From Tribonema minus (taxonomy: Eukaryota > Sar > Xanthophyceae > Tribonematales > Tribonemataceae): a stretch of DNA of 64,000 nt. The notes under the pieces are model-generated. The model was not told the DNA's origin, did not search any database, and saw nothing but the letters and a program-made list of their open reading frames with translations. Location: positions 558,001-622,000 of the forward strand of contig JAFCMP010000519.1 in NCBI GenBank assembly GCA_017506865.1. The letters run 5' to 3'. The translations under genes were made by a program, and so were the position numbers. Positions 230 through 64,000 of the stretch are shown in pieces (within the stretch, counting starts at the first letter, position 1; each line of letters begins with the position of its first letter).

Positions 230-720
230 AAGTCCATGAGTACAGGCCAGTTCACGCTTGAACACTGTCACTACTTCAACAGCGCTCCAGGTCCGTCTCC
301 TCCCTCCCTCCTTTCCGCCCCCCGGCTAAGCCAGATTCCGAATGATCGTTGCCCGCCCCATTTCACCACGCACAGTCCGCGAGCACAGACCAGTCCACCG
401 TTGAACACTGTTGCTCTGCAACAGCGCCCCCGCCCCCCCGTTCCCCCCCCCCCTGCCATCGCCGGCCAAGCTGAAGGCCGTATGATCGCTGTCCCCCCCC
501 CATTTCACCACGCAAAGTCCACGAGTACAGGCATGTTCACCCTTGAACACTGTCACTACTTCAATAGCGCTCCACGCTCATCCCCCCCCCTCGCCCCCTC
601 CCGCCGCAGCCGTGCTGGATGCCTTATGATCGCCGCCCTTCCCAATTTACCACGCGATGTCCACGAGTACAGGCCAATTCACCCGGCAAACACTGTCAGT
701 AATCTAACAGCGCTCCACAC
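230..720 (+). repeat. Tandem ~142-bp units upstream of LZTFL1 exon 751-896
   Basis: Four imperfect units start near 233, 375, 517 and 658. Each has an 'acgagtacaggccagttca...gaacactgtcac..cttcaacagcgctcc' block, a C-rich tract, and a block resembling the start of the exon at 751. The third unit keeps 'gccgcagccgtgctggatgcc' at about 602-624, almost the same as the true acceptor and exon start (745-766). The array is therefore a set of decayed copies of the acceptor-side edge of the next exon. I see no gene in 1-750. Confidence 0.75.
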
Positions 721-750
721 TCATGCCCCCTTATCCCCCCCCCTGCGCAG

Positions 751-3319
751 CCGTGCTGGATGCCATAGAGAAGATGCGCACCGACGGGCCCGTGGTGCCG
801 CGCGCCAACGCGGGCAGGCTGGTCAGCATCAAGGACGAGCACGCACGCCTCATGGAGGAGAGGGACAAGGCAGACGCGGCGTGCAAGGCGGCACAGGTAG
901 GGCTGCATGTGCAGTGTATGCACATTGAAGTGCAACTTCAACCTGTGGTTTACATGAGAACTCAGTCATGTACAGCGACGTCTTGTCAAGGACGAGCATG
1001 CACGCCTCATGGAGGGGGGGGACAGGGCGGATGCGGCGTGTAAGGCGGCACAGGTAAGGCTACATGCGCAATACATGCTTACTGGAAGTACAACTTCAAC
1101 ATGTGCTCCACAAGAGAGAACTCATCGAAGTCTTTGTCAAGGACGAGCACGCACGTCTCATGGAGGCGAGGGACAACACAGACGCGGCACAGGTATATGC
1201 CCACCACATGCACATTGAAGTGCAGCTTCAATCCATAGTTGCTGGTTGTTGGTTTACGAGAGAGAAACTCACATGTCGTACACAGCGAAATCCCTGTAAA
1301 GGACGAGCACGCACGTCTCATGGAGGAGAAGGACTGGGCTGACGCAGCGTGCAAGGCGGCACAGGTAACACCATATGCAATTGAGCGCATTGTTGATGTG
1401 CAACTTCAACATGCAGTTGGCGGTTGTTTCGGATTTACGAGAGAGAAACTCACATGTCATACGCAACAAAGTCTCTGTCAAGGACGAGCACGCACACCTC
1501 ACGGAGGAGAGGCAGCACACCTGCGGTGCAAAGCGGCCTGATCCACCGCAACTGCAGGTAGTAGTCAGTGCAGTCACATTTGGCAGATTACGCAGGACAC
1601 CACGATGCGGAACAGTATCTCGGCAATCAGTCAAGAAACGTCATGCGCTGCGTCATTGCCGTCTAGTCTCAAGTACCTAGCCGTCAATGCTACTACTTAT
1701 AACAAGCATAGCATAGCATTCTGATGCTCTGTTCATGACCTGAGGCACGCCAGCTGCCATGTCATCAGCTCAGCAATCACCACGTGATTCACCATCATAC
1801 CCTGCTTGCCCTAGCGCTGATCCGCATGCCCTGCTTACGGTCTGCGTTCATTGCGTCAGGAGCGGTGTCACAGCAATCTCACGTGATTAACCATCATAAC
1901 CTGCTAGCCGTATCGCTGATCCGTGTGTCCTCACAGCCTGCGTTCCTTGCACCAGGAGCGGTGTCAGCAGCTGCAGGCACAGCATATTTTGCTTGCCCTA
2001 GCGCTGACCTGCATGCCCTGCTTGCGGTCTGCGTTCCTTGCACCAGGAGCGGTGTCAGCAGCTGCAGGCAGAGCATATTTTGCTTGCCCTAGCGCTGACC
2101 TGCATGCCCTGCCTGCGGTCTGCGTCTGTTGCACCAGGAGCGGTGTCAGCGGTTGCAGGCAGAGCGCATTTTGCTTGCCCTAGCGCTGATCAGCATGTCT
2201 TACGGTCTGCGTTCGTTGCACCAGGAGCGGTGTCAGCGGTTGCAGGCAGAGGCGACGGCAGCGCTCCGCGAGAAGACCGAGCTGCAGGCCCAGTTCAAGG
2301 CCCTGCAGCTGGAGGCAGGGGGAAAGGGGGGAGGGGGCGGCGGCGCGGGGGCTAAGGGGGAGGCTGAGGAGGAGACAGAAGACTTGAGAAGGCAACTCGT
2401 GCAGGTCCAAGTGAGTCTGGGTCGGAGTCTTGCTGCCGGGTGTGTGCTGGACGAGAGCCAGCATGGGCTTCAGTCTGACCGGAGAACGCTCAAGGCATGG
2501 GGCTCAGTGAATGCTGCAACTCGAGCGTGGCCGTAAACCTTTCTACCTCTTACCACTATAATCACAGCAATCGGCAGCAGATGCGCACTGATCATACCAG
2601 TAAAATCCACTAGATCCGAACATCGAGCCCATGTGATCGCATGATGCGGCAGTGTGCCAACTTTCAAGGCACGGTACACGTAGGCGCAGATGATGTTCTC
2701 CTAATTTGCAACTACTGTATTCTATACGAACAGTCACAAGAGCGGTGTTCGTGTGGACCACCAACTTGCAGGCTCGATTTTCCACGCAGTGCTCAGCAAC
2801 AGCATGGCTTCAGCGACGCTTCTTGACGCCTGGAGATTTACCTCGTAGAAATACGCATGCGTCAACATTCATTCGCCTTCGATGTGCGCGTCGGCAGCGG
2901 CGGCTGGAGGAGGAGGATGAGGAAGCGCGCAAGCGCCTGGCCGCCTCCAAGCAGTTCCACCAGCTCAAGGCGCTGCTCAGCAGCACTTCTTGACGTCTTG
3001 AGATTTACAGTACCTCGCATTCCTCATGAAATACGCACGCGCGTCAGTCAACATGTGCCATTGTCACGCGCGCCTGCGATGTGCGCACCGGCAGCGGCGG
3101 CTGGACGAGGAGGAGGAGGAAGCGCGCAAGCGCCTCGCCGACTCGAAGCAGTTCCACCAGCTCAAAGCGCTACTCAGCAGCAAGAGCGACCAGGTGGTGG
3201 CGCTGCGGCGCAGGCTGGCGCGCTACGATCCCAACGACGGCGACGGCGGCGACGATGACGGCGGCGCTGACGGCAAGTCCGCAGACATCGAGGATGCCTA
3301 CGGCTACGGGCACACATGA
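751..3319 (+). CDS. LZTFL1: LZTFL1/BBS17-like ciliary trafficking protein (3' part)
   Basis: Three exons join in frame: 751-896, 2225-2410 and 3095-3319 (stop TGA at 3317). The product is an Arg/Glu/Gln-rich coiled coil. What I see: exon 1 has a KDEHARLMEERDKAD heptad stretch; exon 2 has EATAALREKTELQAQFKALQ, then a Gly-rich linker; exon 3 has KRLADSKQFHQLKALLSSK followed by DQVVALRRRLARYDPND. These match, in order, the C-terminal half of leucine zipper transcription factor-like 1 as I know it (its C-terminus ends in a DQIKxLRKRLAQYEP-type motif). Known role of the family: LZTFL1/BBS17 binds the BBSome and controls its traffic into cilia and flagella, so the organism is probably flagellated. 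A 23-residue acidic/Gly tail follows the conserved end. N-terminal exons lie left of the window or are hidden in the repeats before 750. The Gly-rich linker is shorter than the animal counterpart. Confidence 0.85.
985..1545 (+). repeat. Four decayed copies of LZTFL1 exon 1 donor-side edge
   Basis: Copies lie at about 987-1053, 1137-1192, 1293-1363 and 1475-1540. Each begins near 'gtcaaggacgagcacgcac' and most run through '..gcgtgcaaggcggcacag' into a GT. Spacing is 150-180 bp, and intron filler with a 'gaagtgcaacttcaac' motif lies between them. The third copy still encodes KDEHARLMEEKDWADAACKA followed by a GT donor; the fourth has lost it. All lie downstream of the genuine exon in the intron that follows it. 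Confidence 0.85.
1747..2224 (+). repeat. Tandem ~91-bp copies of LZTFL1 exon 2 acceptor edge
   Basis: Before the genuine acceptor (exon from 2225) the motif 'caccaggagcggtgtcagc', with its polypyrimidine lead, recurs at about 1855, 1950, 2040 and 2131. The spacing is about 91 bp and the copies grow more similar towards the real exon. Three keep the cag|GAGCGGTGTCAG acceptor exactly. Only the last copy continues into the coiled-coil coding sequence. Confidence 0.85.
2898..2993 (+). other. Alternative, truncating last exon of LZTFL1
   Basis: This is a near copy of the start of the genuine last exon (3095-3319), with its own 'gtcggcag' acceptor at 2891-2897. It encodes RRLEEEDEEARKRLAASKQF and then QLKALLSSTS and a TGA. 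Phase matches exon 2225-2410. If used, it would remove the conserved C-terminal RRRLARYDPND segment. It may equally be a decaying duplicate that is skipped. Confidence 0.6.
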
Positions 3320-3640
3320 CTGCGAGTTGACTCGGTGATTCGGAGACAAGTCACTTGAGTTGCTGGCGGCGCCGCTGACGGCTATGGACACAGATGACTG
3401 CGAGTCGACTTGGTGACTCGGAGACAAGTCACTTGTGTTGCTGGCGGCGCCGCTGACGGCAAGTCCGCCGACATTGAGGGTACCTACGGCTACGGACACA
3501 CATGACTGCCTCAGCCCGCAGTCGACATGGTGACTCAGAGACAAGTCGCGTGTGATGGCGGCGCGGTGATGAAGTTGGCGATGGCGGCGGTGGCGCTCGC
3601 TGACGACCATGAGGCTGCCGTTTTCGAGGAAGCCTACGGC
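3320..3640 (+). repeat. Tandem copies of the LZTFL1 3' end
   Basis: After the stop codon, the block 'gacggcaagtccgc.gacat.gagg.tacggctacg' and the following 'atgactgcgagt.gac..ggtgactcggagacaagtcac' recur with a spacing of roughly 115 bp at about 3395, 3455-3540 and, more weakly, 3590-3640. These are decayed duplicates of the coding tail and its 3' flank. I see no separate gene here. Confidence 0.7.
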
Positions 3641-3902
3641 GATGTGCGCGCTCAAAGTTCGGGCTGTAGAGGTCGCAGTTCAAGTTGTGTGCGAGGGGCG
3701 TGGCCTTGTTGAACTTTTCCCAGTGTCAGTGGTCCGTAGTAGCCCGACTGTTGTTATCGACCGCCGTGTGAACTTAAGGGTGTGTCATGAGGTGTGTGTG
3801 ATCACATAGATTTCATAGCGCCACAACTATGTCAATGAAGCGCACAACTAGGGTCTAGAAGGTGAACCTTGTCTCAGTGGACCTTATGCTCATGCTGTTG
3901 CT

Positions 3903-4745
3903 GATACTGCATGAAACCTCAGTGCGGTCGGTATGGCCACAAACACGCCACAGGCAGGTGGCACTGGAAAATTTGCCGCCATTATGAGTTTGGTCATGCT
4001 TATGGACACCAGCAACGATGCTGTGACTCAAAGTGTTTGATATTGCCAGCTCGTTCTTTTCCATAGCAATGGCAGTGGTGCACTCTTCATGTGAACCGTA
4101 TTGACAGCAGTGCACATGCGTCACGTTTCGGACACTGTGCAGTGCCGTGCATCAATGGATCATTGCATGCGCACGGCGACAGCAGTTTCTGTCAGATTCA
4201 GAGTCTGAGTCAAGTTCTGGCTATGTCTTCATGAGCTACCAGGTGCAAAAATCACGATGCCCAAGCAGCAGCGGCACACAGATCAAGCATCAATAGTAAA
4301 CGCGGCCGAACTGCCACGGTGATACTGCATGAATTCCTCAGTGCGGTCTGTATGGCCACAAACACGCCACAGGCAGGTGGCACTGGAAAATCTGCCGCCA
4401 TTATGAGTTTGGTCATGCTTATGGACACCAGCAACGATGCTGTGACTCAAAAGTGTTTGATGTTGCCAGCTCGTCCTTTTCCATAGCAATGGCAGTGGTG
4501 CACTCTTCATGTGAAGCGGGTCCGTATTGACAGCAGTGCACATGCGTCACGTTTCGGACACTGTGCAGTGCCGTGCATCAATGGATCATTGCATGCGCAC
4601 AGCGACAGCAGTTTCTGTCAGATTCAGAGTCTGAGTCAAGTCCTGGCTATGTCCTCATGAGCTACCAGGTGCAAAAATCACGATGCCCAAGCAGCAGCGG
4701 CACACAGATCAAGCATCAATAGTAAACGCGGCCGAACTGCCACGG
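3903..4745 (+). repeat. Two-unit ~420-bp tandem duplication
   Basis: Unit one (about 3903-4320) and unit two (about 4321-4745) are nearly identical. Both begin 'gatactgcatgaa.cctcagtgcgg' and end with 'gtaaacgcggccgaactgccacggt'. They differ by small indels such as a 5-6 base insertion near 4517. The high identity suggests a recent event. No coding potential is recognised. It lies between the 3' end of LZTFL1 (+) and the 3' end of the light-harvesting gene (-). Confidence 0.9.
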
Positions 4746-5112: not shown

Positions 5113-5270
5113 CTGCGTGCGGCGCGGCAAATGGTAAAGAGCATGAACGGTGTGAGCACAGCGACGCTGCAGCAACACGGTGATCGCAATTCATGGTCGT
5201 GCTGGTGTGGGGGCATGAATTTATAAAAGCAAGGCCGGAGGGCACAACAACGCTAGAAATATGATGTGCC

Positions 5271-45900: not shown

Positions 45901-48900
45901 GACGTTGGAGATCATCTTGAGCGCAAACTGGCGCGCGTCGAGCGTGCGCTCGAGGACGCGCTCGCCGCGGTCGCGCGCGCGCTTCATCGCGCCCTGGCAC
46001 AGCGTAGGCAGCAGCGATCAGCGAGTGCGTGAGGCAGTGTTCTGCAAACAAGACAGGACGCGCGCTCACCGCGGTCGCGCATAGGCAGCAGCGATCAGCA
46101 AGTGTGCGAGGCAGTGCTCAGCAAAGAGGGCAGGACGCGCTCGCCGCCGCGGTCGCGCGCGCGCTTCATGGCGCCCTGGAAGGCAGCGTAGGCAGCAGCG
46201 ATCAGGGAGTGTGTAAGGCAGTGCTCAGCAAAGAGGGCAGGATGCGCGCTCGCCGCAGTCGCGCACGCGCTTCATGGCGCCCTGGCACAGCATAGGCAGC
46301 AGCGATCAGCAAGTGTGTGAGGCAACGCTCAGTCTGTAAGGCAATGCTCAGCACACAGGCAGGACATGCTTGCGGCGGTCGCGCGCGCGCTTCAGGGTGC
46401 CCTGAAACGCAGCGATCAGCAGGTGTGTGGGGCAACGCTCAGTGTGAGGCAGTGCTCAGCAAACAGGAGAGGACGCGCGCTCGCCGCGGTCGCGCGCGCG
46501 CTTCATGGCGCCCTGGGAGGCAATGATCAGCAAGGGTGTGAGGCAACACTCAGCGCAATCGTATGCGCATGCAGCCGCGCGGTAGCTGCTCAAAGGTGCT
46601 CACAGACGGTAAAGCGCGCGCTTGGCACGTACTTGGCCTGCGCACGCACATCACCAGATAATATCGCCATACATGCATAAAAAGCCCTTCAGCGTACGCT
46701 GATAAACGTTGAGGTATATATGGTGTACTTCGAAGTACACCGTATGTATATACTTCCTTCAAAGTGAAAAAACGCATGTGAATGCTTATAAATGGTGATA
46801 GATCTACATATATGGTGTACGTCAAAGTGTATCACAGCGACATCGATACAGTACATCATATGTACTTCACAATGTATATGGTGTGATTTAAAAAAAAAAC
46901 ATAATGGTGTAATTCAAATTACATCATATGTACTCCACAACGTATATGAATGTAGCATACGCTGAAGCACACATATAAATGCATACCTTGACCATGATGC
47001 GCGTCTCGTGCAGCATGCTTCATGGCAAAAACACGTATACATACATACATACCTTGACCGTGATGCGCATCTCCAGCAGCTCGCGCAACATGCTTCATGG
47101 CGAAAACATGTACACATATATACCTTGACCATGATGTACACATGCATACATACCTTGACCATGATGCGCGTCTCCAGCAGCTCGCGCAGCATGCGCGGCA
47201 GCACGCCCACCCTCTGATCGGTGGAGCAGAACACGGCGCCATTCGGCGACACGTAGGGTCCCCCCTCCGAAGTGCCCTCCGACGAGGGCGGCGATGTGCC
47301 AGCTGGGTCCACACCTGCCCGCCTGGGGGTACATGTGAGAAGTGAGTTGGGCTCGTCAGTCAGATGCGCCGTCTAGGCGAATGCATATTTGGCGATATTG
47401 CGCGCGGTGCAAAGCACGTAGTCGTACTTGCGCGCTCGTCAAGTCAGATGCACTGTCTCGGCAGGGTCGTTGATGTATTCAGAGCGGACTACATAATGCA
47501 AGAAAGGTATGGGGGTAGTTGGAGATAGTGCAAGTGGCGCAAGGTGCTGTTTCGTCGTACACTCGCGGAGCTTATGAGGGGCGCGGTGCGACCTGCTGAA
47601 CACTGTATACTTACAGACAAAGGGGTGAGATGCAAGCGGCATTGTACGCCGCAGCGCCCCCGCCATGCACTTGTACATGTTAAGTATATGCATGGGGTAT
47701 GTGCAAGCCGGCTTCGAGCTCACACCACTGTTTACCACAGTTTGGTGCCAGGCACGGCCTGACTGTGAAAATGAAGATGGTATGACATCAATTTGACGCT
47801 AGTCAGGGAGACGTTGTGATAACATACATATATATACAAGCACAGTGTCACAACATTCATGATTAAAATACCTGGAAGTACAAACAATAATAATCTAAAT
47901 ACATGTACTTTGAAGTCGTCATGTTGTGAAGTGACGTCGCACGTTTTTCAGAAGCGGCCCATGCTGACCAAAGTAACGATGACCCACAGCACCAATTATC
48001 ATCGACGCGACGAAATTCATCACCGTCACATGTACCTGAAGCCATCCGCCGCCTGCGCCTCTGGGTAGGGTATCACGCTCACGCTGCCGATACCAGCCCT
48101 GTCGGTTGTGGTGTGGCTCCCATCATAGCAATAATGTCAGCGATGCAACTAAAGTACTTCTAATTAGCGTCATACCTGAAGCCATCCGCCGCCTGCGCCT
48201 CCGGGTAGGGTATCGCGCCAACGCGGCCGATACCTACCCTGTCGGACGTGGTGTGGCCCCCATCATAGCAATAATGTTAGCGATGCAACTAGATTCATTA
48301 GCGCCATACCTGAAGCCATCCGCCGCCTGCGCCTCAGGGTAGGGTATGATGCCAACGCGCCCGATACCTGCCCTGTCGGTTGTGGTGTGGCCTGCATCAG
48401 ACAGGTCCAGGCGCCCCATGATGGTGGAGAAGCAGAGGTTGTATGCGATCACCATAGAGGGGTAGAGGCTCTGCACGCATGCAAGTGCGAAGGGGATTGT
48501 GAGCATTTTCAGTGACATGTAGGGCTGCGGGTGCTCTGAGCATCACCGTCAATTCTGTAAGAACAAGGCACCTCAGCGGCATGAAGAGGCTCAATTTGCG
48601 AGCAGGTATTGCCATGCAGTGGTGCGGGATACTACACACTAGATACTACTTCAACCTACACACTACACGCGATCACCATGGAGGGGTACAGGCTCTGCAC
48701 CGGTGCAAGGGCAAAGGGGGTTATGAGGTAAAAAGGGTGGTTTGAACATCACCAACTCTTTCTGTAAGAACAAGGCACCTTGGCGTCATGAAGAGGCTCA
48801 ATTTGTGAGCAGGTATCGCCATGCAGGCGTTATACGCCATCATTATGCAGGGTACAGGCTCTGCATAAGTGCAAGGGCGATGGGGGTTCATGAGCATAAT

Positions 48901-51900
48901 TCATGAACTATAGGGCTGTGGGTGGCTTGAGCATTGCCATCTATCCTTGCGGATCTGTCTGACCTAAAAGAGGCGGACAGCTCGGCACCACAAAGAGGCT
49001 CGTGAGCAGCATCGCCGTGGAGGTGTACAGGCGCTGCGCGTGCGCACAGAAAGGGCGTCAGGGGGCTGCATACCCTTACGAGTCAATGTGTCAATTTTGT
49101 GGGCTGCTTCTCAATGACCTGAGCGCCCCAGCACTACCGAGAAAGTTTGTGGATGTGAGTGCAGGCGCTGCAGGTGCGCACGAAAAGGGCGTCATAGGGT
49201 TGCATGCCGGTACAAGTCAATGTTTCATGTCAAGGGCTTCTTCTCAAAGCCCTGAGCGAACCAGCACGATAAAATTTGTGGATGTAATCGCGGCGGATCA
49301 CAGGCTCAGCGCAAGCGCCAAGGCCAGCTGTTCACACGCACCATCAGCGGACTGCAAAAATACGCACTGTTGAAGCACAACATCATCAGTTGCACAGCTA
49401 CGCAGTGCTGAAGCATCGACATGACCGTTTGCAGAGTATTCGGTGGGCACTAAGTAGGCACGCAGCCCCTGACGGTTGTGTAACGCGCTGCGCATGCATG
49501 CACGCACACATACACATATGCCTACATACCTGAAAGTCCAAGACCACCACGGGGTCCGCATAAAACTTGCTGCGAGGCTCCATCACGAGAGGTATGCACT
49601 CCATGGCGGCCTGCCTTGCCACCTGAAGTGACAAAGTTGTATGGCCCCACAGCGTCGACCCAGGTTTAGTGTAGTGTACAATGTCACACATGGTTGCACA
49701 GCGTCGATCTGTAATCACCGTAGTGCACGCACAATAATGCATGCGCACACATCGTGTGCAGAGCAATGACACAGAGCGAGCATCGTTGAATTCAAGGAGT
49801 GCCAGAGTGATAAATGGTTGCACAGCGTACACCCGGGCTCAGTGTATTGCACACAACATGTGATGGTGTCAGGTGACACACAGGCTGTGCGCATGATTCG
49901 GTTTGTGTTCAAGACTTGAGTACTTTGAGGTGGTACGGTCTACTCTGCTAGTATCATTGGCAGCATGTGCACGCGCGGCGCCAGCATGGCACTCGGGGGT
50001 CCGCAACGAATTCAGTCCGACGCACACAATGATGACATCAGGCACAAGCGGGCGTGTGCAGAGAAACTTTATTGGTTACAAGAAGTAATGCTGTAAGATA
50101 ATGCCATTTTCATTTTGTGTGGAAATGAATCAAAAGACTGTAGAGCTCTACTTAGGTATACTTTAATTGAGTACAATTTTTAATTCCGCTGGCCGCGGCA
50201 GCGCGCTTGCGCAGCGTGGCGAAGGCGAAATGAGAAAGTGAACAGGCTATCGAGCGAGCAGCGTCGGCAGTGAACCCAAGGAATGTCAGGAAGTGCACAC
50301 AACACCAGTGTGGAAGCACTCGGCTCCTGTGAGAAAATGCGCAGGCCGTGAGGAAATGCGCCGCGGCTGGCGTAAGCCTGGCAACATTCATGTCAACTTG
50401 AAGTACACAGTGCGCTCCAAGCCTGTGCCTCGTCGTTTTGAAAGTCAAGCCTGCAGCGCCCAGACCATTTGCACTTTTGAAACGTTGTGGTTCAGCTTCA
50501 GTGTGATATTTAAGTTTGGCCCACCTGCTGCCTGCTGGCGCTGACCGCCAGGTACCCCAGCGGCTTGAGCACCTTGAGCATCACGGCCTCCACTCTGAAC
50601 TGAGAGCCGCGGCTGCGCAGGTTCAACAACAGAACGCAAGTTCAACATAATAAAGCAAGTTCAAAAGTGGCAGTGAACGAGCAGCGCGTCAGAAGAACGC
50701 TCTCAGCACCGCAGCTGTCATAAATGGGAATTTGAGAACTGCCAGCCGCAGCTGCAAGAGTTCAACAGTAGAACGCAAGCTCACCATTGATATCATGGAC
50801 GGACAGCAAGTCAGACAAGGAGACTGCCAAGAACCAGGATCGGCAACATTGTGCCCCCTCTCTCGCTACTGAAGCTGGCCCGAGGTTGTAGGGTGAAGAC
50901 ACCCTCGCAGATGTACTTGGTGCAAGCGACAGCAGGCGCAACCGGTAATGCACTCGCAAGCAGGCAGCGCCAGCCACTGTGACAGCGTTTCGGGCGCCTT
51001 TCAGTCTTTGCACCCTTAAACCTCGCACACAAATTCACTGATAACATTATGAAGTATGAGTCTTTGTTCGCTTGTAAATAAGGTTGTGCGAACTTGTCGC
51101 CAGAAAAAAGACAGAAGCGTCTTTCGATGGCAGTACATGCAAAAAAAAACACGTGCATTTGCGCTCGTGACGCACCTGAGCACATCGAAGAAGCTGATGC
51201 CAAACAGCCGCGCCATCTCCGCGGTGCGCTGCACGAGGCCGAGGCGCCCAAGCAGGTCCAGGTTGACGCGCGCGCGCTCGAGAACGTGCGACAGCACCGC
51301 TCCGCGCGCCGGCCCTGTATACCTGCAATGACGGCGACGCGGTGGTGTAGCTCAATGATGCGATGATTGGGAGCAGCAGTCCTCCCGTATTATGAACAGA
51401 CGTGCTTCGAAGTTGACTTGATTGTGGTATACGCATATGGCGCTTTGACGAGTAGAGGGTTCAAGCGTACGACAGAGGACGTGCAACAGCACCGCTCCGC
51501 GCGCAGGTTTCGCATACCTGCAATGGCAGCAAGCCTCCTTTGAAGTATAATTCTGAACAGGGCCACGGCCATCCTACGCTCAGGGCCCTTCTCACCACTC
51601 TGCCAGCGCTGCGTACGCGGCGAGCTGGTGCCGCACCACGCGCGCCGCCGCCAATAATCCATAAAGAGTGTTTTATGCTTCCAGCAGGAACTGAAGTACA
51701 AAACTGCGCAACGCCGCGGCCATGCGTCACGGTGCTCACCACTCTGCCAGCGCGACGCGTGGGTACCGGCTAGCCGCCGCCGCAGCACGCGCGCTGTAAA
51801 CAGTATGGAAGTTAGTGAAATTTCGAAGTTTGTTGTTCAAGCAAAACCTTTTTGAAGTATGGTACTGAGCAATGCCACGGCTGTCGCAGACCCCACGCGT

Positions 51901-54900
51901 CAGTTCTCTCACCGCTCCGCCAGCGCGGCGTGCGGGTACGCGGCGAGGCGGCGCCGCAGCACGCGCGCCGCAACAATACACCATAGATATTACTTCTACT
52001 TTGACGTAATATATATTCTTCAAGTATATGACACTGAGCAATTCCAATTCCACAGCCCTCGCAGACGCTACGCTCAGGGCGCTCACCACTCCGCCAGCGC
52101 GGCGTGCGGGTACGCGGCGAGCCGGCGCCGCAGCACGCGTGCCGCGACCGCCGGCTGCGCGTACGACTGCAGCTTGAGCTCTGAGCGCAGGACGCGCCAC
52201 AGGTTGAGCACTGTGCGCCCCCACAGCCACAGCCCCGAGGCGTGGTCGTCGCCGTAGCTGTCGCGGCCGTTACGAGGGTCCGCATCTAGGCGCGGCGCGC
52301 GCGACAGCAGCCGCAGCAGCGCTCCCCCGCTGCCGCTGCTGCCGCTGCTGTTGTTGGTGGAGAAGGAGGGGTTGGCAGCGGCGGCGGCGTCGCTGCTGCG
52401 CGCTGCCGCGGCGTCGAGGATTGCTGAGCGCTGTAGCAGGTAGCCCACGGAGCCGCCCTGTCGCAATGCATGGAGATGAACGTGTTGGTCATGCGGCTGG
52501 CACACATCGCCATCATATCACCGACACATTTCAAATTGGCGTTGCACGGTTGATGGGCGGACAGAGCCAGCGCCTGGGCCAAGCTCCATGCACTTCGTCA
52601 CACTCCTGTAGGTTACCTGACCCCAACCTTAATCCTAATTCGCGGTACAAACATGCTTGAAGGTGCGACCGCCTACAAGAGAAACTAGCACACGTGCACG
52701 ACGCATGTGCCGCGGTGGACATAGATGACACTGCGACTCGCTGTGCGCTCACCCTCACCTTGACTCTGACCTTAAATCCAAAATCTATCACTGACCCATT
52801 GACTCACTTACTTGGACATCCCACCCCACAGGTCGAAGCGGCGGCAGAGCACTGCCACGGCGCCTCGCAAATCCTGCTGACACGGCAACTTTTCACTTCT
52901 AAATCATAGTTCTCATGGTTGTTCTGCCCAGCGGCTCCTGTGCCATCACCCCCCGTGTCTGCACAACAGCCCCTTGGTTGAAACGTCCGCAACATCTACG
53001 GCAGCGCCTGCTGCACTTGCATCGGTGGGCATCGGTCACCTGGGCACCTCAGCCCACAACGATGTCGTGCGCACATGCAGGACTGTCTCGTTGTGCCGTT
53101 TTTAAGATGAATGCGCGAGCGCTGCGCCTGAGTGGGCGCCTACCCCAATCCTACTGCTAGCCCAAACCCCAGAATCAATCACTCCCCTTGAATTGAACTT
53201 TCACGTACATATCTGGACGTCCCAGCCCCCGACAACATCGGCTCGAAGCGTCAAACGAGCACTGTCAACGCGCCCAGCAGGTCCTAACCCTAACCCTAAC
53301 CCTAACCCTAACGTAACTACCCAATTCTATCGCTGACCCTTAGCCGTACTTACTTGGACATCCCAGCCCACAATGATGTCCGGGTCGAATCGGCGGACAA
53401 GCACTGTCACACAGCGCTCAGCAGGCCCCAACCCTAACCCTAACATGAATCGCCCAGTAGCCCTAAACCTAACCCTAACATAGATCAAAAATCAACGACT
53501 GACTGGTTTAAAAGTCACTCCTTACATACCTGTACGTCCCAGCCCACGACGATGTCCGGGTCGAATCGGCGGAAGAGCACTGTCACGGCGCCCAGCAGGT
53601 CCTGCTCGCACGACACGACCACCGCCTCGATGTGCGGGCCCAGCCCGAGGCCGGAGGCGCGGCGGCCGGGCATCTCGGGGTCCAGCTGCTGATTGGCCTG
53701 CGGTATGGCACGTAGGTACAAGAGATGTACTTCAAGTAGTAAGTTAAGTAAACGAGAGATGCATACTTGGTATTTATATGCAACTGCAAAGGAGGCGCGG
53801 CGGCCGGGCATCTCGAGGTCCAGCTGCTGATCGGCCTGCGGTACGGCACGTAGGTACAAGAGATATGTAAATCTCGAGGTAGTAGTTTCAAGTTCAAAGG
53901 GCACACCTGCGACGGGCTGCAGCTGACCTTTGCGCCGCGCACGAGCCCCTTGCCCGTGTCGCTGCACAGGCACAGCCGCCATAAAAACTTGAAGTATTAC
54001 TTCAATTGTGAAGTTCAAAGTCGAACGCCACTGCATCGGGCTGCAGCTGAACTTTGTGCCGCGCACAAACCCCGCACCCGTGTCGCTGCACGGGCAGAAC
54101 ATTCTAACATATATGTTATATACTGAAGTAGTACTTCAAGTTTGCAGTTCAGATCACACGCACCTGCGACGACGGGCTGCAGCTGAACTTGGCGCCGCGC
54201 ACGAACCCCGCGCCCGTGTCGCTGCACAGGCAGAAACGGCCGCCGTAGCGCGTGCCGCATGCTTCGCACCACGACGCCGTCTCCGGCGGGCGCGATGGCG
54301 GCACACTCGCACCTGCAGCCAGGGCGCGCAGCAAAGCAATTGGGCATTTGCGTCGTCTCATAGGCCCAGGCCGGCACCGTCGGAATGCAGATGCATAGAT
54401 GTCGCGTGCTGATGTACAGATGTTCTTCAAGGCAACCTGGACTGTTCTGTTAAAATGGATGCTGGGGAGGTTCCTACATTGAATTGCAAATGAAGAGAGG
54501 AGCGGGGCGGGGCGGGGAAATGAATGCGGACCTTGCGCTCCCAGGGCTGCCGTGCCTGCTGTACATGATTGAAGTCTGGGGCTGGAGTCCATAGCAGCAC
54601 AGCAGTGGTGCGAAACGTGCCACGTCTGCGTGTCACAAACATCTCTTGCGCACCGCCGCCGCAGCCGCCGCCGCCGCCGCCGCCGCCGCGGATACCACGA
54701 CCACGACGACCTCCGTGCGTCACCGTCATTTGTTCAAATACATGTTGAAATATCATGCAACGCGCGCGCCGCGTAACGCGACCGCCTCTGTCGCGCACCT
54801 GCTGCCACCGCGGCACACACATACACACACACACACACACACGCACACACACACTCACACACGCCGTGCCGCAACGGCACCGCCGCAGCATTGCGCGCCA

Positions 54901-55063: not shown

Positions 55064-55094
<31 letters not shown>

Positions 55095-58000
55095 GCGGCG
55101 TCCGCCACAAAGACGACGCCCGCCGCCTCCACGACCCTCTCGCTGTCGGCCGTGCCCCACTCGTCGCGCGCGCTCCAGGCGACGGCGAGCGCGGCGTCGC
55201 GGCGCGGATCCGGCGTGAGGCCGTTGCGCGATGCGCCAAAGACCTCGAGGGAGAGGTACGAGACGCGGTGCTCTGCGTGGTGCTGAGCGCTGCTGCTGGT
55301 GGTGGTGTGGTTGTTGGGGGGGTTTGCGGGGGGGGGCTTCAAGGGGGTGGCGGCGGAGGCGGGGGTCTGCGTGGGGGGCGTGAAGTGCGCGTGCTGCTGC
55401 TGGCGGCGGTGCTGCAATGGGCAGGGGGGCGGCGTAGCGGCGGCGGCGCGGTGTTGACGTGGCGCTGCAGCGTGTGAGGATCACTGTGCGAGTAGGCACA
55501 GCAGCACAGGCGGCATGCACTGAGCCGTAGCGTGACAAGCGCGTGCTGCTGCTGGCGGCGGTGCTGCTGCGATTGGGTGGGGGGCACGGTCAGGGGGATG
55601 CACACGCGGCGCAGCAGCGTGTCGTGGAAGAGCAATGAGGCTCTGCAGCGCATGATCATGATTAACGCTCAGATGTGACGTGCGCGTGGCGGTGGTGGCA
55701 GTGCTGCAGTGGGCGGGGGGGGGCGCGGGCCGCGCGGCGTGGTGTCGATCAGGCGCTGCAGTGCGTGAGGATCGCTACGCGCTTCAATATAACATCACAG
55801 CACCATGCACTGAGCCGTAGCGTGATGTGCGCGTGTTGCTGCTGGCGTCAGTGCTGCAATGGGGGGGGGGGGGGCACAGGCAGGGGGATGCATACGCGGT
55901 GCAGCAGCATGTCGTGGATGAGCGATGAGGCTCTGCAGTGCATGAGGGTGACTATCGCTCAGATGTGAAGTGCGCGTGCTGCTGGCGGTGGTGCTGCGGT
56001 GGGCGGGGGGGGGGGGGGTGCGGGCGGCGCAGCAGCGGCGGCGGCGCGGGGTTGATGAGGCTCTGGCAGGGTGTGAGGATCGTTACGCGCTTCGACGCAG
56101 CATCACAGCAGCAGCATGCACTGAGCTGTAGCGTGACGTACGCGTGCTGGTGGCGGCGGCGCTGCTGCGAACGGGGGGCAAGGTCTGGGGGATGCGCACG
56201 TGGGGCAGCGGCGTTGTTGCGATGTTGACGACGCGTTGGGCCTGCATATTATCAGTTGCAGGAGTGTGCGAGCGGCGATGGGCGTGCAGGCAGTGAGGGG
56301 TTGGGGGGAGATGTTCAGGCGGAAGGCGGTGACATGGTGCGGCGCACATGCGCGCAACGGCAAATTAGGGTTCCACTTGCCCCAACTCCTACTCCGAGGG
56401 TTAGCATGAACGCATGACCGGTGACACGTCTGCCATGCACAGGCCAAGCCCCAGCAGAGAAGGGAAGGGGCGTTACGCAGTCGAGGTTGTACACTTGCGC
56501 ACGCCCCATGGCACACAGCGGCAGCACACTGCTTTTAAGATGGTGTGCTGATTGACCATGTGTGTCAAAACAGCATGAACCGCGCAACAAGCGCGCATCA
56601 CCAACGCGCAGTGCCACTGGACAGCATTCACCTTCTTTGCGAGCGGCGGCGCTGGCGGTGGCAGCGGCTCGGCAGGCAGCAGCGCTCCGGTGTTGGCGTC
56701 CATCGCCAACACCTCGTCAACAGCCTCCGAGCGCGCCATGTTGACGTGCCGCTGCAGCGCCTGCGGCTCGCACGCCGCCTCCGCCGCTGCCGCCGCCGCT
56801 GCTGCTGCCGTGTGCGACGCCTCCTCCGCCAGCCACGCGCGCGCCGCCTGCAGGCTCGGTGGATTGCGCGCCGGCTCCAGCCACAACAGCCCTTTTGTCT
56901 GAGGAGGCACTGCTGCGGAGGCTGCGCCCGCCGCCGCCGCCGCTGCCGCAGCGCGCTGCCGCCAGTATACGAGCCCCCTGCAGAGCGGCGCCGGCGGCGG
57001 CAGCGGTGCGGGCGATGGCACCGTCGGCAGCGACGGCGACGTGAGGCTCGAGCCGGACCCCGTGGACTGCGGCGGGTGCTTCTGAGCGCTGCTGCTGCTG
57101 CCGCCGCCGCCGCCCGCGCCCCCCCTGCCGCCGCCCCTCGCAGGGGGGGATGCGGGGCTGAGCACCTGCAGCCCAAGCCCCCGCCCCGCTGACCCCCCCG
57201 ACAGCTGCTCGGAAGGGGGGTCGACTTGCTGCGAATCCCACATGGGCGCCATGGCAGGCTCCTGCCCCCCAGAAGAGGGGGCCCAGTCCAGGGGGCTGCT
57301 GCCGCCGCCGCCGCCGCCGCCATCGGGGTCGCTGTCGCCGAGCGACGGTGGCGCCGAGCGCTGCTGCTGCCGCTGCTGCAGCAGCGCCGCACGCAGCAGC
57401 CGCCGCGACGGCAGCGTGTCGAACGGCGGCGGCGCCGTGGAGCACGGAAGGCGCACGGCGGCGCCAGCGAACTCGTGCGCGCGGCGCGGCGCGTCGGCGG
57501 CATTGGACCAGTGCGCCGGCGTGTTGACGACCTCGGGGACGCCGCAGCGGCGCAGCGCGGCGCGCCACTCGCGCGGCGGCGGCGCCGCGAGGCGCGGGCG
57601 CAGCAGCACCTCGGCGGCGGCAGCGGCTGCGGCGGCGGGAGCCGGCGATGCCAAGCGCTGCGCATGCGGCGGCGGTTCCTCGTGGCTCCGGTGCGTATCG
57701 TCGACGTCCATGGGGCTTGGATCCGCGAGCGGAGTATTGTGCAGCGGGAACGCTTCGCGATATTGCGCTGCAGCAGCGCTGGCATCAGGCGCCGCCGAAG
57801 CGCCGCGACTCCGTGCCGCGGCTGCAGCGGCGGCGGCGGCGGCGGAGTCAGCGCCCGCGGTACGCTGAGAAGCGCTGCTAGCGCTGGCTGCTGAGTCGGG
57901 CGCGGCGTCACATGTAGGTATGTATGTGTTCACAAAAGGACTGTCGCCCTTCCTGCCATGCGGCCCGTCGACAACAGCAGCGACATCCGCGACAGCGCGC

Positions 58001-61000: not shown

Positions 61001-64000
61001 TGGCTGCTGCTGCCGCCGCCGCTGCGCTGCCGCCGCGCCGCAAATGACAAGGCGGGAGCTCCTCTTGCGACAGCAGGCCAAAGCTGTCGCCGCCCGCGCT
61101 ATCACGGCCTTGCTGCCTGCCGCCGCCACCCAATTCGACGCCAGCGTCGCTGCCGCCGTCGCTGCCGCGGCCGTCGCTGCCGCCGCCGTCGCCCGCCTCC
61201 TCCGCGCCGCTGCCCCCTGACTCCGACTCCGACTCTGCGCCGCCGTCGTCCGAGTAGAGTCGCGAGCGCTCGGCTTCGCGCGCCTCTGCCGCCTCCTGCT
61301 CGCGCGTGTCCGCTGCGAGCTGCGCCTGCGTCGCGGCGATGCGGTCGAGCTCAATTGTCGTTTCGGCGGCGTCTTGCCACGAGGGCGGCGGCGGCGGCGG
61401 GAAGGGCGAGGACGGTGCCTGGGGGCGACAATGCGGTGCGGCAGAGAGGAGAATCACTGCTGGAAAGTGTGTATGTTTGCACTCGTGCGTAGGCTCGAGT
61501 CCTTGCACCAACAGGCATGGGTGCATGTAGAACACAGGTTTGTGCTGTCATGACAAGCACGCAGTACATGCAGTATGTCACACACTATGTGGCAAGCGCA
61601 TGCGCTGAAGCTGATGCGCCATGATGCACTCGCGTTACCTACGCTTTCGTGATTGCTCGATGTGTCTCAATGAAGTTGAAGTTTGAATTGAAGTTGAAAT
61701 CTCATTCAATCCAGCTGCTCAGCGCAGTTCATTCAAGCCTGATCCACATGGCAGCAGCAGCGGTCGCGTCAACGGCCAGACTGCTGTTGAAACGCACATT
61801 CCATGTGCATGCATGCATTCAGATCACGATGTGCATTCGCAGTCGTTATATTGAAGTTGAAGTTTCTTTGAAGGCAGCTTGAAGTGCGCGCATACCTGGT
61901 CTCTTGCGGCAGCGCCTGTGTCCACGGCCAGACTGCGCAGGTCCTCCAGCACAGTGTTTCAAAACCTTGCAGTTCACGCGTGCACACATTAAAGCTGAAG
62001 TTTTCTGAAGGCAACTTGAAGTGCGCACATACCTGGTCTCTTGCGGCAGCGCCTGTGTCCACGGCCAGACTGCGCAGGTCCTCCAGCGCCTCCCTGTCGC
62101 CGGGCGTGAGCGAGTCGCTGAGCTGGCTCCACCCAGTGCCGAGCGCTGCCTCACGCTGCGACCCCATCGGCTGAGCCAGCAGCTCGCCCGGTATCTGCCA
62201 GTAAACACACCGTGCATGGTACATACAGGGGTTGGCCTGGGCACAATACTGATGATGAGCCTGCCTGGAGTTCACCAATGCGACTGTCAGCGTACTGCGG
62301 CACTGTGCTGAGCTGCGACCCCACAGGCTGAGCCAGCAGCTCGCCAGGTATCCGTTCATGAAAGAGCGTACATGACGAATACGGGGGTTGGTTTGGGCAC
62401 GACACTGAGACTGCGCCTGCCTGAAAGTCACTGACGTAATCAGCGCCTTACTGCGGCACTGCTGCGGCGTGAGTGAGTCGCTGAGCTGGCTCCACCCAGA
62501 GCTGAGCGCTGCCTCGCGCTGCGACCCCACCGACTGAGCCAGCAGCTCGCCCGGTATCTGCCAGTAAACACACTATGCATGGTACATACAGGGGTTGGCC
62601 TGGGCACAATACTGAGAAAGCGCCTGCCTGATATTTACCAATGCAATTGTCAGCGTACTGCGGCACTGCTGCGCTGCGCTGTGACCCCACCGGTAGAGCC
62701 AACAGCTCGCCCGGTATCTGCCAATGAACAACGTGCATGACAAATATGTGGGTCGGCCTGAGCCCGACACTGAGAACGCGCCTGTTCGAAGTTCATCAAC
62801 GCAATTGCGGCACTGCTGGAAGTCTGCTGGTTGAGGCAGCAGCTGGCCCGGTGCCTGCCAGAGTGACACTGCATGCAAGAAACATGTGTACATGCCTGAC
62901 CCTTGGCTATGGATGAGCTGCAAGTCGGCATGCGTGGGCCATGCCTAAAGTTGAACAGTGGGCCTCCTTGCCGGTGTTGCCGTATTGTATGAAGACTTCA
63001 CCGGCTGAGTCAGCAGCTCACCCGAAAGCTGCCAGTGAAACAGTGTCGATGCTAGAAAAAGGTTTGCTTCATGAGGCCACTGAGGATTGCCTGCCAGGAG
63101 AGGCCAGCACAATAGCATTGCTGTGGCTCTGGCATAACCTTCAACATCAACTACTTCCACATCAACTAAGCATCACAAGCAGACTCTGCCACCGCGCACA
63201 GCAACGCACATCCGCGACGACATACCTCAATCTCCAGCGGTGCGAAACCGTCCTCCCCCTCCGCTTCTTCCCCCCCGCCGCCTCCGCCCCCCGCTCCCCC
63301 TCACCCCCCTCCCCCCGCCGCTGCGCGCCGCCGCCGCAGTGCCGCGCCACGATCGCCGCCATGCTGCGCTCCCACTTCGCCTGCAGCTCCGGCCTCACCA
63401 ACCTCCCCCTCAGTGGCCCCGGGGGGGACCCCCTCAGCGCCAGCCCGGGGGCGGGGGCGAGCTGCGACCCCTCCCCCATCCCCCTCTGGCGCGTGCGCTC
63501 CTCCTCCCAGATGGCGGCGAGGCTCGGCACGCACACGGCGGGGGCGCGCGCGGGGGAGGGGGGGAGGGGGTCGTCTGGGGGGGGGGCGGTCGCGCGCAGC
63601 CGCAGCGAGTTGAGCAGGTCGGCGACGTGCGCGTCGAGCTCCAGCTCGCACACCGTGTGGCGCTGCCAGTGGGGGAGCGCGGAGGGGGGGCGGCGCTGCG
63701 CGGCGGCGGCGGCGCCGCTGCCGCCAGTGGCGCTGCTGCCGTCGTTGCGCGGCTGCAGCGCAAAGTACCGCTTCTGCGGCTCCTGCTGCTGCTGCGCGTG
63801 CTGCTGCTGCTGCTGCGGAGCTTTCGCCGGCTTGAGGTACGGATTGACAACGGCTGGGTTGGGGGATGGTCGTGGCGCTGCGGGTGGCGGCGGCAGCGGC
63901 GGTGGCGGCAGCAGCGGCGGCGGCGGCATAGGCTGTGCTGGCGGCGAGGGATGGCGGCGCGGTGGCGGCGGCGGCGGCGGCACTGGGTCGCTACGGCGAT
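39931..64000 (-). CDS. REV3: DNA polymerase zeta catalytic subunit REV3 (5' end outside window)
   Basis: B-family polymerase for translesion synthesis, working with REV7. Core exons in order: 55060-55411, 54164-54312, 53530-53697, 52087-52457, 51176-51322, 50525-50612, 49530-49622, 48310-48470, 47154-47322, 45797-45993, 44760-44931, 43541-43687, 41669-42129, 40669-40834, 39931-40125. They sum to 3036 nt (1012 codons with stop), every phase fitting. Motif A is DFQ/SLYPSMVIAYN, motif B KMISNVTYGYTAA, motif C VVYGDTDSLF. REV3-specific marks are KWERSM near the N-terminus, IQDFIFQKE, RGERVPYVVVHG and two C-terminal Cys modules. The exonuclease-like domain has YLSLEVFG instead of a catalytic D-x-E, as expected for proofreading-deficient REV3. 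Upstream are exons 56632-61418 (large), 62033-62194 and 63226 to the window edge. Two frame breaks (near 61060 and in the G-run near 63270) remain unexplained; no start codon is in the window. Confidence 0.95.
40390..40636. mobile_element. MITE-like element with long terminal inverted repeats
   Basis: About 247 bp. The left arm (40390-40459, aattctcgctcagggcgcga...) and right arm (40573-40636, ending ...tcgcgccctgagcgagaatt) are near-perfect inverted repeats of about 63-70 bp with a few mismatches. The centre is short and non-coding. It lies in the REV3 intron between exons 40669-40834 and 39931-40125. Solo arms of the same family ('catctgggc.tttttcgcgccc') occur at 36925-36970 and 13745-13790. 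No clear target-site duplication is visible. Confidence 0.8.
41180..41580 (-). repeat. Copies of REV3 exon 41669-42129 donor edge
   Basis: A nearly exact copy of the exon end and donor lies at 41511-41574 ('gctcacctgtggcgcggccgcggcatctccgcgtaccagcgcttcacgt.gacgcccgcgagcgacagcagc'). Further out (41180-41430) a degenerate array of 'gctgccacagcgctcac' units may be older copies. Confidence 0.8.
42250..42450 (-). repeat. Copies of REV3 exon 41669-42129 acceptor edge
   Basis: 'cagcacgcggatgcacttctcctgcgcag' from 42107-42136 recurs at 42257-42285 and, decayed, at about 42411-42443 ('cagcacccggaacgcactgctcctgcgca'), with the following GGCGGCGGCAGCA and 'gatacctac.tacctatggg' flanks. The spacing is about 150 bp. 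Confidence 0.85.
42820..43440 (-). repeat. Decayed copies of REV3 exon 43541-43687 donor edge
   Basis: 'gcacctgcat.ttgttgac' fragments lie at about 42822-42845, 43168-43185 and 43385-43400, mixed with CCCTAA-like tracts ('accctaaacctacccataagcataacccc'). Copies also share 'cattgtgctctgcattgcgca'. Similarity is limited. Confidence 0.6.
43735..44040 (-). repeat. Two tandem copies of REV3 exon 43541-43687 acceptor edge
   Basis: The genuine edge at 43655-43730 ('gcgcttcttggacaccagcagcgacgacgtgtacacctgagggggg...') is repeated at about 43806-43880 and 43968-44042, spacing about 155-165 bp, with the 'ttataacttttcgtgaaaatg.tatatatcgttatgatcgcatatcttcaacat' filler also repeated. About 40 nt of exon is copied. 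Both copies keep the acceptor and the G/C run next to it. Confidence 0.95.
44585..45095 (-). repeat. Copies of both edges of REV3 exon 44760-44931
   Basis: The donor-edge copy at 44589-44690 ('accttctcaagcttgagcaccacggtcggcggattggac.tcgtgac..cggc') lies downstream in transcript order. The acceptor-edge copy at 45045-45095 ('gcgggcgcccccatggagggtgcctctccgcctttctgccgtgcagaat') lies upstream. One exon thus shows both kinds of copy. Confidence 0.9.
46000..46545 (-). repeat. Array of decayed copies of REV3 exon 45797-45993 acceptor edge
   Basis: At least four copies of 'cgcgctcgccgcggtcgcgcgcgcgcttcatggcgccctgg' plus 'gcagcgatcagcaagtgtgtgaggca' lie at about 46060-46100, 46135-46190, 46235-46290 and 46370-46410, with another at 46470-46540. 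The units are ~90-130 bp. Many keep an intact ccag acceptor, so the true acceptor at 45994 is one of several candidates. Confidence 0.9.
46980..47150 (-). repeat. Copies of REV3 exon 47154-47322 donor edge
   Basis: 'cataccttgaccatgatgcgcgtctc.agcagc' is repeated at 46983-47015 and 47049-47080 (with 'gtgatgcgcatctccagcagctcgcgca'), and a stub lies at 47119-47136. Flanking 'catgcttcatgg.aaaaacacgtatacatac' is repeated too. Confidence 0.9.
47995..48305 (-). repeat. Two copies of REV3 motif-A exon donor edge
   Basis: 'cctgaagccatccgccgcctgcgcctc.gggtagggtat..cgc.cacgc..ccgatacc..ccctgtcgg.tgtggtgtgg' of exon 48310-48470 recurs at 48035-48115 and 48173-48260, each followed by 'cccatcatagcaataatgt.agcgatgcaact'. 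The spacing is about 135 bp. Donor GT is kept. Confidence 0.95.
48630..48900 (-). repeat. Copies of REV3 motif-A exon acceptor edge
   Basis: 'cgatcaccatggaggggtacaggctctgcac' at 48668-48698 and 'cgccatcattatgcagggtacaggctctgcataagtgc' at 48834-48871 resemble 48446-48482. 'aagaacaaggcacct..gcg.catgaagaggctcaatttg' filler is repeated. Confidence 0.85.
50735..50790 (-). repeat. Copy of REV3 exon 50525-50612 acceptor edge
   Basis: 'ccgcagctgcaagagttcaacagtagaacgcaag' at 50746-50780 resembles 50607-50641 ('ccgcggctgcgcaggttcaacaacagaacgcaag'). Confidence 0.65.
51470..52000 (-). repeat. Mixed array of copies of two REV3 exon edges
   Basis: The acceptor edge of exon 51176-51322 is copied at 51478-51530 ('gtgcaacagcaccgctccgcgcgcagg...atacctgcaatg'). 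The donor edge of exon 52087-52457 is copied at about 51590-51645, 51735-51790 and 51905-51970 ('ctcacc.ctccgccagcgcggcgtgcgggtacgcggcgag.cggcgccgcagcacgcg'). One intron thus carries copies from both neighbouring exons, each on its own side. Confidence 0.9.
52800..53450 (-). repeat. Copies of REV3 exon 53530-53697 donor edge, with telomere-like tracts
   Basis: 'ctggacgtcccagcccacgacgatgtccgggtcgaatcggcggaagagcactgtcac.gcgcccagcaggtcc' is copied at about 53352-53425, 53210-53286, 53030-53075 (fragment) and 52810-52880, increasingly decayed. Two of the copies run directly into (CCCTAA)n at 53283-53312 and 53424-53446. 'aatc.atcactgacc' filler also recurs. Confidence 0.9.
53780..53880 (-). repeat. 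Copy of REV3 exon 53530-53697 acceptor edge
   Basis: 'ggaggcgcggcggccgggcatctcgaggtccagctgctgatcggcctgcggtacggcacgtaggtacaagagat' at 53791-53863 repeats 53653-53728 with few changes, in the upstream intron. Confidence 0.95.
53890..54110 (-). repeat. Two copies of REV3 exon 54164-54312 donor edge
   Basis: 'acctgcgac.gggctgcagctgaactt.gcgccgcgcacgaaccccgc.cccgtgtcgctgcacaggcag' is copied at 53905-53978 and 54030-54100, spacing about 125 bp. 'acttgaagta.tacttcaa.t.tg..agttcaaa' filler is repeated between them. Confidence 0.95.
54814..55027. repeat. (CA)n microsatellites and a copy of REV3 exon 55060-55411 donor edge
   Basis: CA tracts at 54814-54863 and 54969-55025 flank a decayed copy (54890-54968) of the exon end 'gccgcggc..cg.ccgccattaagacgacgcccgccgtctccacgaccctctcgctgtcggcc'. 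The copy still encodes ADSERVVETAGVVLMAD on the minus strand. Confidence 0.85.
55540..56195 (-). repeat. Five-copy array of REV3 exon 55060-55411 acceptor edge
   Basis: The edge 'gaagtgcgcgtgctgctgctggcggcggtgctgcaatgggc' (55382-55422) is repeated at about 55540-55580, 55675-55715, 55818-55858, 55965-56005 and 56132-56172, spacing about 140-165 bp, with 'gcgtgaggatc.ctacgcgcttc', 'gcactgagccgtagcgtga' and G-run filler. Several keep a usable ag acceptor in the same phase. Confidence 0.9.
56632..61418 (-). other. REV3 giant low-complexity exon
   Basis: About 1,590 codons of REV3. Acceptor at 61419-61420; the first ~120 codons (Glu/Ser/Asp/Gly-rich) are in one frame and the remaining 1,470 or so in another, which is open from 61050. 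Homopolymeric Ala, Gly, Ser, Pro and Gln tracts dominate. Conserved islands: a Tudor-like segment (59946-60111), a Gln/Glu/Arg coiled coil (59775-59940), and a REV3 motif PPPREWRAALRRCGVPEVVN..HWSN..DAPRRAHEFAG (about 57450-57600), which matches the PPSREEI..L...GL.E..YQEP..SNPSDVP.KPREI.G block of animal REV3. The donor at 56631 leaves phase 0. Confidence 0.8.
59946..60111 (-). other. Tudor/PTM-like domain inside REV3
   Basis: About 55 residues: VGASVRRHFPGAGYFNGEVI followed by ~15 residues and RRVRYTDGDEEDVEVAHM. The pattern (Val-Gly, basic, F-x-G-x-G-x-F-x-G-x-V, then R-V-x-Y-x-DGDxED) is typical of small Tudor/Agenet-like folds found in plant and algal chromatin proteins. I know of no such domain in animal or yeast REV3. 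Confidence 0.65.
61745..61950 (-). repeat. Copies of REV3 exon 62033-62194 donor edge
   Basis: 'gtgcgcacatacctggtctcttgcggcagcgcctgtgtccacggccagactgcgcaggtcctccagc' (62022-62085) is copied nearly exactly at 61886-61950 and, decayed, at about 61748-61790. 'ttgaagttgaagttt.ctgaaggca' filler is repeated. Confidence 0.95.
62300..63040 (-). repeat. Array of copies of REV3 exon 62033-62194 acceptor edge
   Basis: The exon start 'gctgagccagcagctcgcccggtatctgccagt' is copied at about 62325-62352, 62530-62567, 62693-62727, 62835-62862 and 63005-63035. The 62465-62567 copy extends ~100 nt into the exon ('gtgagtgagtcgctgagctggctccacccagagctgagcgctgcctcgcgctgcgaccccaccg'). A 'tacataca.ggggttggcctgggcacaatactga' filler is repeated beside each. 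Confidence 0.9.
63226..64000 (-). other. REV3 N-terminal conserved exon (partial)
   Basis: Part of REV3. After a poly-Pro/Gln stretch, HTVCELELDAHVADLLNSL and VPSLAAIWEEERTRQRG match the conserved REV3 N-terminal-domain end (animal REV3 has a CELEVDAVAADILNRL..LQAIWEDEK-type sequence). KWERSMAAIVARH follows. The donor after LEIE (63226) fits exon 62033-62194 in phase 0 only if the frame changes by one within a G-run near 63270. Confidence 0.8.

Follow-up and report, generated by a model that had tools for sequence, protein, structure and literature searches.

Copies of exon edges in adjoining introns and intron growth by local tandem duplication in the alga Tribonema minus

Introduction

A DNA polymerase B gene, which we take from its motifs to be zeta/REV3-like, lies on the minus strand of a 64-kb stretch of the 158-Mb, 554-contig genome of the alga Tribonema minus (assembly GCA_017506865.1, contig JAFCMP010000519.1, positions 558,001 to 622,000 of the forward strand). 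This stretch is called the window below, and its positions are counted from its first letter. The introns of the polymerase gene contain partial copies of the edges of the neighbouring exons. An earlier reading of the window (the original prediction) had seen in such copies the trace of a recurrent duplication process, anchored at exon boundaries, that has lengthened the introns. To our knowledge, it is poorly resolved how introns lengthen without transposons; in this genome, the single events of their growth can be followed.

Copies of polymerase exon edges

Three polymerase exons were verified with the PF00136 profile and their splice sites were set by a position matrix: E1 (45797..45993, profile positions 138-197), in which the donor scores weakly (1.7), E2 (44760..44931, positions 217-271, with YGDTDS inside) and E3 (43541..43687, positions 270-321). 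Five of the six homology-verified edges carry ten copies together, and among these six only the E3 donor is free of them. Each of the ten sits on the side expected for its edge, with its AG or GT retained.

The E1 acceptor is accompanied by an array of four copies (45953..46553; junctions at 46175, 46281, 46401 and 46512), which hold 37-42 nucleotides (nt) of exon and have all kept CAG. Two copies of the E1 donor, with 18 and 8 nt of exon, have their junctions at 45604 and 45402 (45381..45840). At E2, the acceptor edge and its single upstream copy (44893..45108; junction 45079) share 39 nt of exon at 81% identity, and the donor edge and its single downstream copy (44589..44841; junction 44593) share 82 nt at 90% identity, with GT retained. 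The two copies of the E3 acceptor (43647..44059; junctions 43843 and 44000) each hold 41 nt of exon at 93-96% identity, and both retain CAG. All these features are on the minus strand.

Self-comparison of the window gave 80 direct repeats versus 3 inverted ones, and 70 of the 80 direct repeats are at most 500 nt apart. With a second search setting, 106 direct matches were grouped into 40 clusters, of which 32 have a predicted coding segment at a distance of 60 nt or less. In introns the ab initio predictor calls about 0.9 false segments per kb, with values from 0.6 to 2, and its use was therefore restricted to the map of the window. Only two of the 40 clusters fall in the roughly 16 kb (8400-24400) where coding signal is nearly absent, which suggests that the visible tandem duplications of the window are mainly genic. 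Two random 6-kb stretches gave three direct matches and none, respectively, a sample too small for an intergenic rate. The original prediction counted more than twenty affected edges in at least five genes; this was borne out for five of the six verified edges, while the other edges of the window, placed by coding potential and not by homology, are plausible but unproven edge by edge.

Edge copies in conserved gene families

Loci outside the window were chosen by conserved family (CCT/Cpn60, kinesin, MCM, proteasome) to escape circularity. Every CCT and MCM locus found was fetched; for kinesin and proteasome the sample was limited to 10 and 5 loci, respectively, picked because they had several exon matches. 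Eight profile matches in seven loci were judged to be copies and excluded ahead of modelling. Among the 31 loci modelled, 29 had a usable junction (166.5 kb); the other two, L036, with two visible acceptor copies, and L061, were left out of the counts. Junctions were placed by profile continuity, reading frame and GT/AG. Of 80 junctions, 76 were retained and four dropped; some of those retained are loose, with a profile mismatch of up to 5 residues.

These 29 loci yielded 253 direct versus 9 inverted matches (11 in a reversed-sequence control), and the distances of all 253 direct matches are below 900 nt. Edge-crossing copies were found at 51 of the 152 modelled edges (23/76 donors and 28/76 acceptors). 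All 101 edge-crossing matches respect the side rule of the original prediction: the donor matches are downstream (42/42) and the acceptor matches upstream (59/59). The 98 mapped copies belong to 50 edges, 25 with one copy and 25 with two to seven.

For the 85 copies with at least 24 nt of exon, to which the copy statistics below refer, the quartiles of the exon part are 41, 54 and 65 nt, and 5% exceed 90 nt. The 30-100 nt predicted for this part describes most copies, not all. Unit spacing is mostly 90-200 nt, with a median of 153 nt, and the sequence between copies is part of the repeated unit, so that the arrays are tandem and head-to-tail. Homology of the spacer was detected in 59 of the 85 copies, and most copies carry an intron flank and splice dinucleotides.

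These properties bear on several other origins. Retrocopying is contradicted by the intron flank and the splice dinucleotides present in most copies. Tandem duplication of whole exons was rejected, since the 101 edge-crossing matches are all in the adjoining intron and none elsewhere, and the exon part rarely exceeds 90 nt against a median of 154 nt for the 43 modelled exons. Each unit counted here spans a single junction that was already present, and its copies are within the intron that was already there, which sets these units apart from exonic duplications of the AGGT type. Many flanks that looked unrelated close to the junction had prompted an exact-boundary model, with exon and splice signal duplicated alone; in view of the spacer homology, such a model is not generally applicable. 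Insertion of mobile elements, introners or transcript retrocopies, for which nothing speaks beyond the recurrence across many introns, is scarcely credible: the copies are in direct orientation, mostly with their intron flank, no edge-crossing match is on the wrong side, and the one array that was searched genome-wide gave two matches, both at its own locus.

Intron growth

The modelled introns of the 29 loci have a mean length of 830 nt and a median of 698 nt. Each visible copy corresponds to a further 162 ± 24 nt of intron (intercept 620 nt; p=2e-9), and this growth per copy is close to the median spacing of the units. Introns with copies have a median of 915 nt versus 601 nt for those without, and the arrays cover 24% of all modelled intron bases. 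These data support the view, already put forward in the original prediction, that recurrent local tandem duplication lengthened the introns, each copy adding about its own length.

Fate of the copies

GT or AG is retained in 73 of the 85 copies, and about 64% of the donor copies and 63% of the acceptor copies reach at least the 10th percentile of the scores of functional splice sites. The affected introns thus offer decoys to the splicing machinery. Selection might maintain such copies as alternative splice sites, alternative exon ends or splicing regulators, and these scores are in line with it, as is the retention of GT/AG, which exceeds that of later simulations (65-83%), although earlier runs reach 69-94%. 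Furthermore, the ratio of nonsynonymous to synonymous differences (pN/pS) between copies and functional exons is 0.28, and the copies contain 2 stops, where a neutral simulation with 9% divergence gave 9.5. Most of this low pN/pS is to be expected, since changes in the functional exon are themselves mainly synonymous. Against selection, 25 of 30 indels break the frame, offsets are a multiple of three in only 33 of the 85 copies, and read-through is open in 17 of 85. We consider selected copies very unlikely. A coding function was rejected because of the frame-breaking indels and the lack of a clear frame bias in the offsets, and the sequences support copies that are non-coding and appear to decay roughly neutrally. 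A selection on exon parts had also been considered from the sharp drop of identity at the junction; simulations run with no selection on copies drop similarly.

Gene conversion from the functional exon could repeatedly refresh the exon parts and also inflate the apparent youth and number of the edge families, a process compatible with the other readings. Copy-to-copy identity is indeed higher in exon-derived sequence (0.854) than in intron-derived sequence (0.775; shuffled, 0.737). Yet the copy-to-copy divergence of about 15% is near that of independent decay at 7-10% each from a common source, and detection favours copies whose exon parts are intact. We regard such refreshing by conversion as improbable.

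Side rule and length of the exon part

The original prediction took the side-specific pattern as the mark of a special process. This does not hold, as the pattern follows from any tolerated tandem duplication across an edge: the mRNA remains unchanged only when the splice site in use is still that of the outermost copy, the one joined to the rest of the exon. Surplus copies of an acceptor can thus persist only upstream, and those of a donor only downstream. Side-specificity is thus no evidence for special machinery. In our forward simulations, in which duplications of about 150 nt were placed uniformly under purifying selection, the side rule is built in.

The same simulations bear on the exon part. 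Under plain uniform placement about 40% of the exon parts exceed 90 nt versus the 5% observed. When a minimum intron part of 60 nt was added, two uniform runs gave 13-17% above 90 nt and a median of 54 nt, as observed. This rough agreement indicates that a filter for splicing viability explains most of the limit. Uniform simulations also yield the high identity of the exon parts and its drop beyond the splice signal.

Placement of the duplications relative to exons

Edge families outnumber intron-only clusters by a ratio of 2.48 (52:21; 50:22 by whole-locus search). With uniform placement, simulated introns starting at 400-800 nt gave ratios of 0.55-1.25, and those starting at 300 nt gave 1.25. 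When exon-derived sequence was masked, 30 of the 50 families were still detectable by their intron spacer alone, as compared with the 21 intron-only clusters. From this like-for-like comparison, and assuming 90 nt of opportunity per edge, edges are enriched 5.4-, 3.9- or 2.8-fold if introns had 100, 78 or 60% of their present length at the time of the events; the enrichment is smaller if they were far shorter. Planted duplications were detected about equally at edges and in interiors, which are alike in base composition and complexity. Furthermore, 12 of the 21 intron-only clusters start within 60 nt of an edge, as compared with 15-26% in most simulations. Under these assumptions, the data support a concentration of duplications near edges relative to intron interiors.

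The opposite reading holds that there is no bias: duplications fall uniformly, selection preserves the mRNA, and edge-crossing copies can be recognised for longer, since their functional counterpart in the exon hardly changes, so that geometry and ascertainment produce the excess. The side rule is built into such a simulation, which also yields the identity drop past the splice signal and, with the 60-nt minimum, most of the exon-part limit. It also approaches the observed ratio when introns start at 200 nt and end at 551-574 nt (1.98-2.77), whereas the same start gives 0.77 if the introns grow with unrelated DNA. Short starting introns of this kind are the main escape from an edge bias; the 601-nt median of copy-free introns makes them less likely. 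The low ratios from 400-800 nt starts, the like-for-like enrichment of 2.8-5.4-fold and the position of the 12 intron-only clusters next to edges all argue against uniform placement, which we judge rather unlikely.

We favour recurrent local head-to-tail duplication with an exon-proximal bias, filtered by splicing, and give this reading a probability of about 0.68. Several results weigh against it. Besides the ratios obtained from 200-nt introns, that simulation placed 22 of 44 intron-only clusters near edges, and 9 of the 21 observed clusters are more than 60 nt from any edge. "Anchored", as in the original prediction, is therefore too strong a word for the over-representation at edges, the more so as introns of about 200 nt give a similar ratio with no bias. 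The expected better preservation of copies nearer the exon proved weak: 15 families follow such a gradient and 6 go against it (p=0.08), and the rank correlation is -0.10 (p=0.37). The spacer decays faster than the exon-derived parts and is detectable alone in 30 of the 85 copies; unequal detection, gene conversion or a quicker turnover of introns that are simple in sequence could each account for this. Finally, no single simulation fits all measures.

Proposed mechanism and known systems

According to the favoured reading, units of mostly 90-200 nt are duplicated locally in genes, several-fold more often near exons than deep in introns. A duplication across an edge would leave the protein intact only if the outermost, exon-attached copy remained the splice site used, and protein continuity suggests that splicing in vivo does use this outermost site. 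The tandem direct repeats, the side rule, the unit length, the lengthening with copy number and the non-coding decay are documented above, as is the enrichment at edges under the assumptions given. The inner copy would become intron, add its own length and decay roughly neutrally, and repeated rounds would produce the arrays. The DNA event may be replication slippage, short-range template switching or the mis-processing of lagging-strand ends, with little microhomology; little was seen in the ten cleanest of 46 pairs, in which the readout is limited by divergence. The original prediction had placed such slippage or template switching, as a possibility, at GC-rich exon starts and ends; the GC content is 0.625 in exons versus 0.55 in introns. 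As a speculation, a unit of about 150 nt hints at the scale of nucleosomes or of lagging-strand synthesis. 

A stronger version is put forward only tentatively, as we would sooner bet against it: exon edges might be true hotspots for duplications of about 150 nt that ratchet introns longer everywhere, and the spliceosome might ignore one to seven near-intact decoys per edge and pick the outermost site, so that its choice would need exon-level information rather than the site itself. The arrays are natural splicing experiments: nearly the same site recurs at known distances, and the protein is compatible with the outermost one only. Should the edge bias hold throughout the genome, this would suggest a mutational process linked to gene structure.

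Intronic minisatellites and other tandem repeats also form head-to-tail arrays, with units of roughly 90-200 nt. Unlike them, the algal units regularly hold 20-90 nt of adjacent exon, and the algal arrays end inside the exon and cluster at edges. Introners give rise to introns and form families of elements scattered over the genome; they share with the present case a recurrent intronic growth across many genes of one genome, whereas the algal copies adjoin the edge from which they originate.

Among the open-access papers listed by our searches, which leave most subscription journals outside, we saw none that describes the duplication of exon edges across a genome as a way in which introns grow. 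The closest case is the potato RdRp gene where, in the available passages of the account, a single tandem duplication across an intron-exon boundary created a new intron (Ma, Lan and Niu 2016, PMC4974935). As in the alga, the duplicated unit holds an existing 3′ splice site, the intron tail and part of the exon, so that the signals are inherited. The potato example is one case and gave a new intron, while the algal copies are widespread, concern donors and acceptors alike and lengthen existing introns; no new intron was seen among the algal edge duplications studied. In the exonic AGGT duplication (Hellsten et al. 2011, as cited in passages of PMC4974935 and PMC3443670), the spliceosome likewise removes one tandem copy, but there the exonic unit supplies both splice sites of the new intron, whereas the algal unit carries one pre-existing site. 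Tandem duplication is treated as a route of intron gain in the relevant passages of the review PMC3443670, which contain nothing on intron growth. For Ectocarpus, of the sister brown-algal lineage, tandem repeats are described as relatively even across the genome (PMC12477816).

Other features of the window

Four groups of direct repeats lie at the left end of the window on the plus strand, the first three assigned by coding potential. The array at 230..767 (unit about 142 nt) is 5′ of a predicted exon (segment 750-896) and looks like copies of an acceptor edge that include little of the exon. It is followed by a putative donor-edge array of exon tail and intron head (829..1537; unit about 157 nt), in which several copies, judged by eye, retain CAG/GTA, and by a putative acceptor-edge array of about 3.5 copies of a 91-nt unit, 5′ of a predicted coiled-coil exon (1771..2251). 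Two neighbouring clusters at 2810..3564 overlap or touch the predicted segments 2901-2981, 3098-3310, 3443-3493 and 3554-3649.

The remaining clusters are on the minus strand. One overlaps predicted coding segments (29834..30568), and another, with 14 matches, adjoins the predicted segment 32015-32107 (31060..32021). A two-copy repeat (42108..42459) spans the upstream edge of segment 41812-42135, presumably the C-terminal part of the polymerase-like gene, as judged from its position and motifs. Two neighbouring clusters, the first with a unit of about 140 nt, are near weak coding segments (48003..48947). Further clusters lie over coding segments 51915-51977 and 52089-52421 (51539..52148) and over each end of segment 53545-53706 (two clusters, 52748..54235). 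The cluster at 55378..56234, with 7 matches, is near predicted coding segments; its strand was taken from the surrounding gene, and the two segments predicted close to it have the opposite orientation. The last two are at coding segment 62060-62197 (61850..63042), and the second extends to the right end of the range covered by the original prediction.

A 4.6-kb open frame with low-complexity codon repeats (56473-61098, minus strand) has no direct-repeat cluster of the studied type inside; from its position, it probably encodes a disordered region in the middle of the zeta-like polymerase. Of the 8000 candidates scored in a protein search with the long open reading frame of the polymerase gene, none matched at E<=0.001, the PF03104 profile had no match in the window, and Pfam scans of other window stretches gave weak matches below the cut-off only. 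A light-harvesting gene (PF00504; 7489-8427, minus strand) is without a direct-repeat cluster, unlike several of its neighbours. Its best match is a T. minus protein, from which its exon parts, compared by eye, deviate in a few residues only.

Other repeats were also noted. An array of AGGTAGGTAGG units at 28355-28640, in which the AG/GT motif occurs many times over, adjoins a predicted coding segment. A tandem unit of about 426 nt at 3902-4747 (96% identity), with no coding signal nearby, is the longest of such units in the window and among the least diverged. Interstitial telomere-type repeats occur at 12218-12274 and 53283-53312 (TAACCC x9.5 and CCTAAC x5), and CCCTAA/GGGTTAG-like strings were seen by eye inside introns of three of the loci outside the window (L043, L049 and L064).
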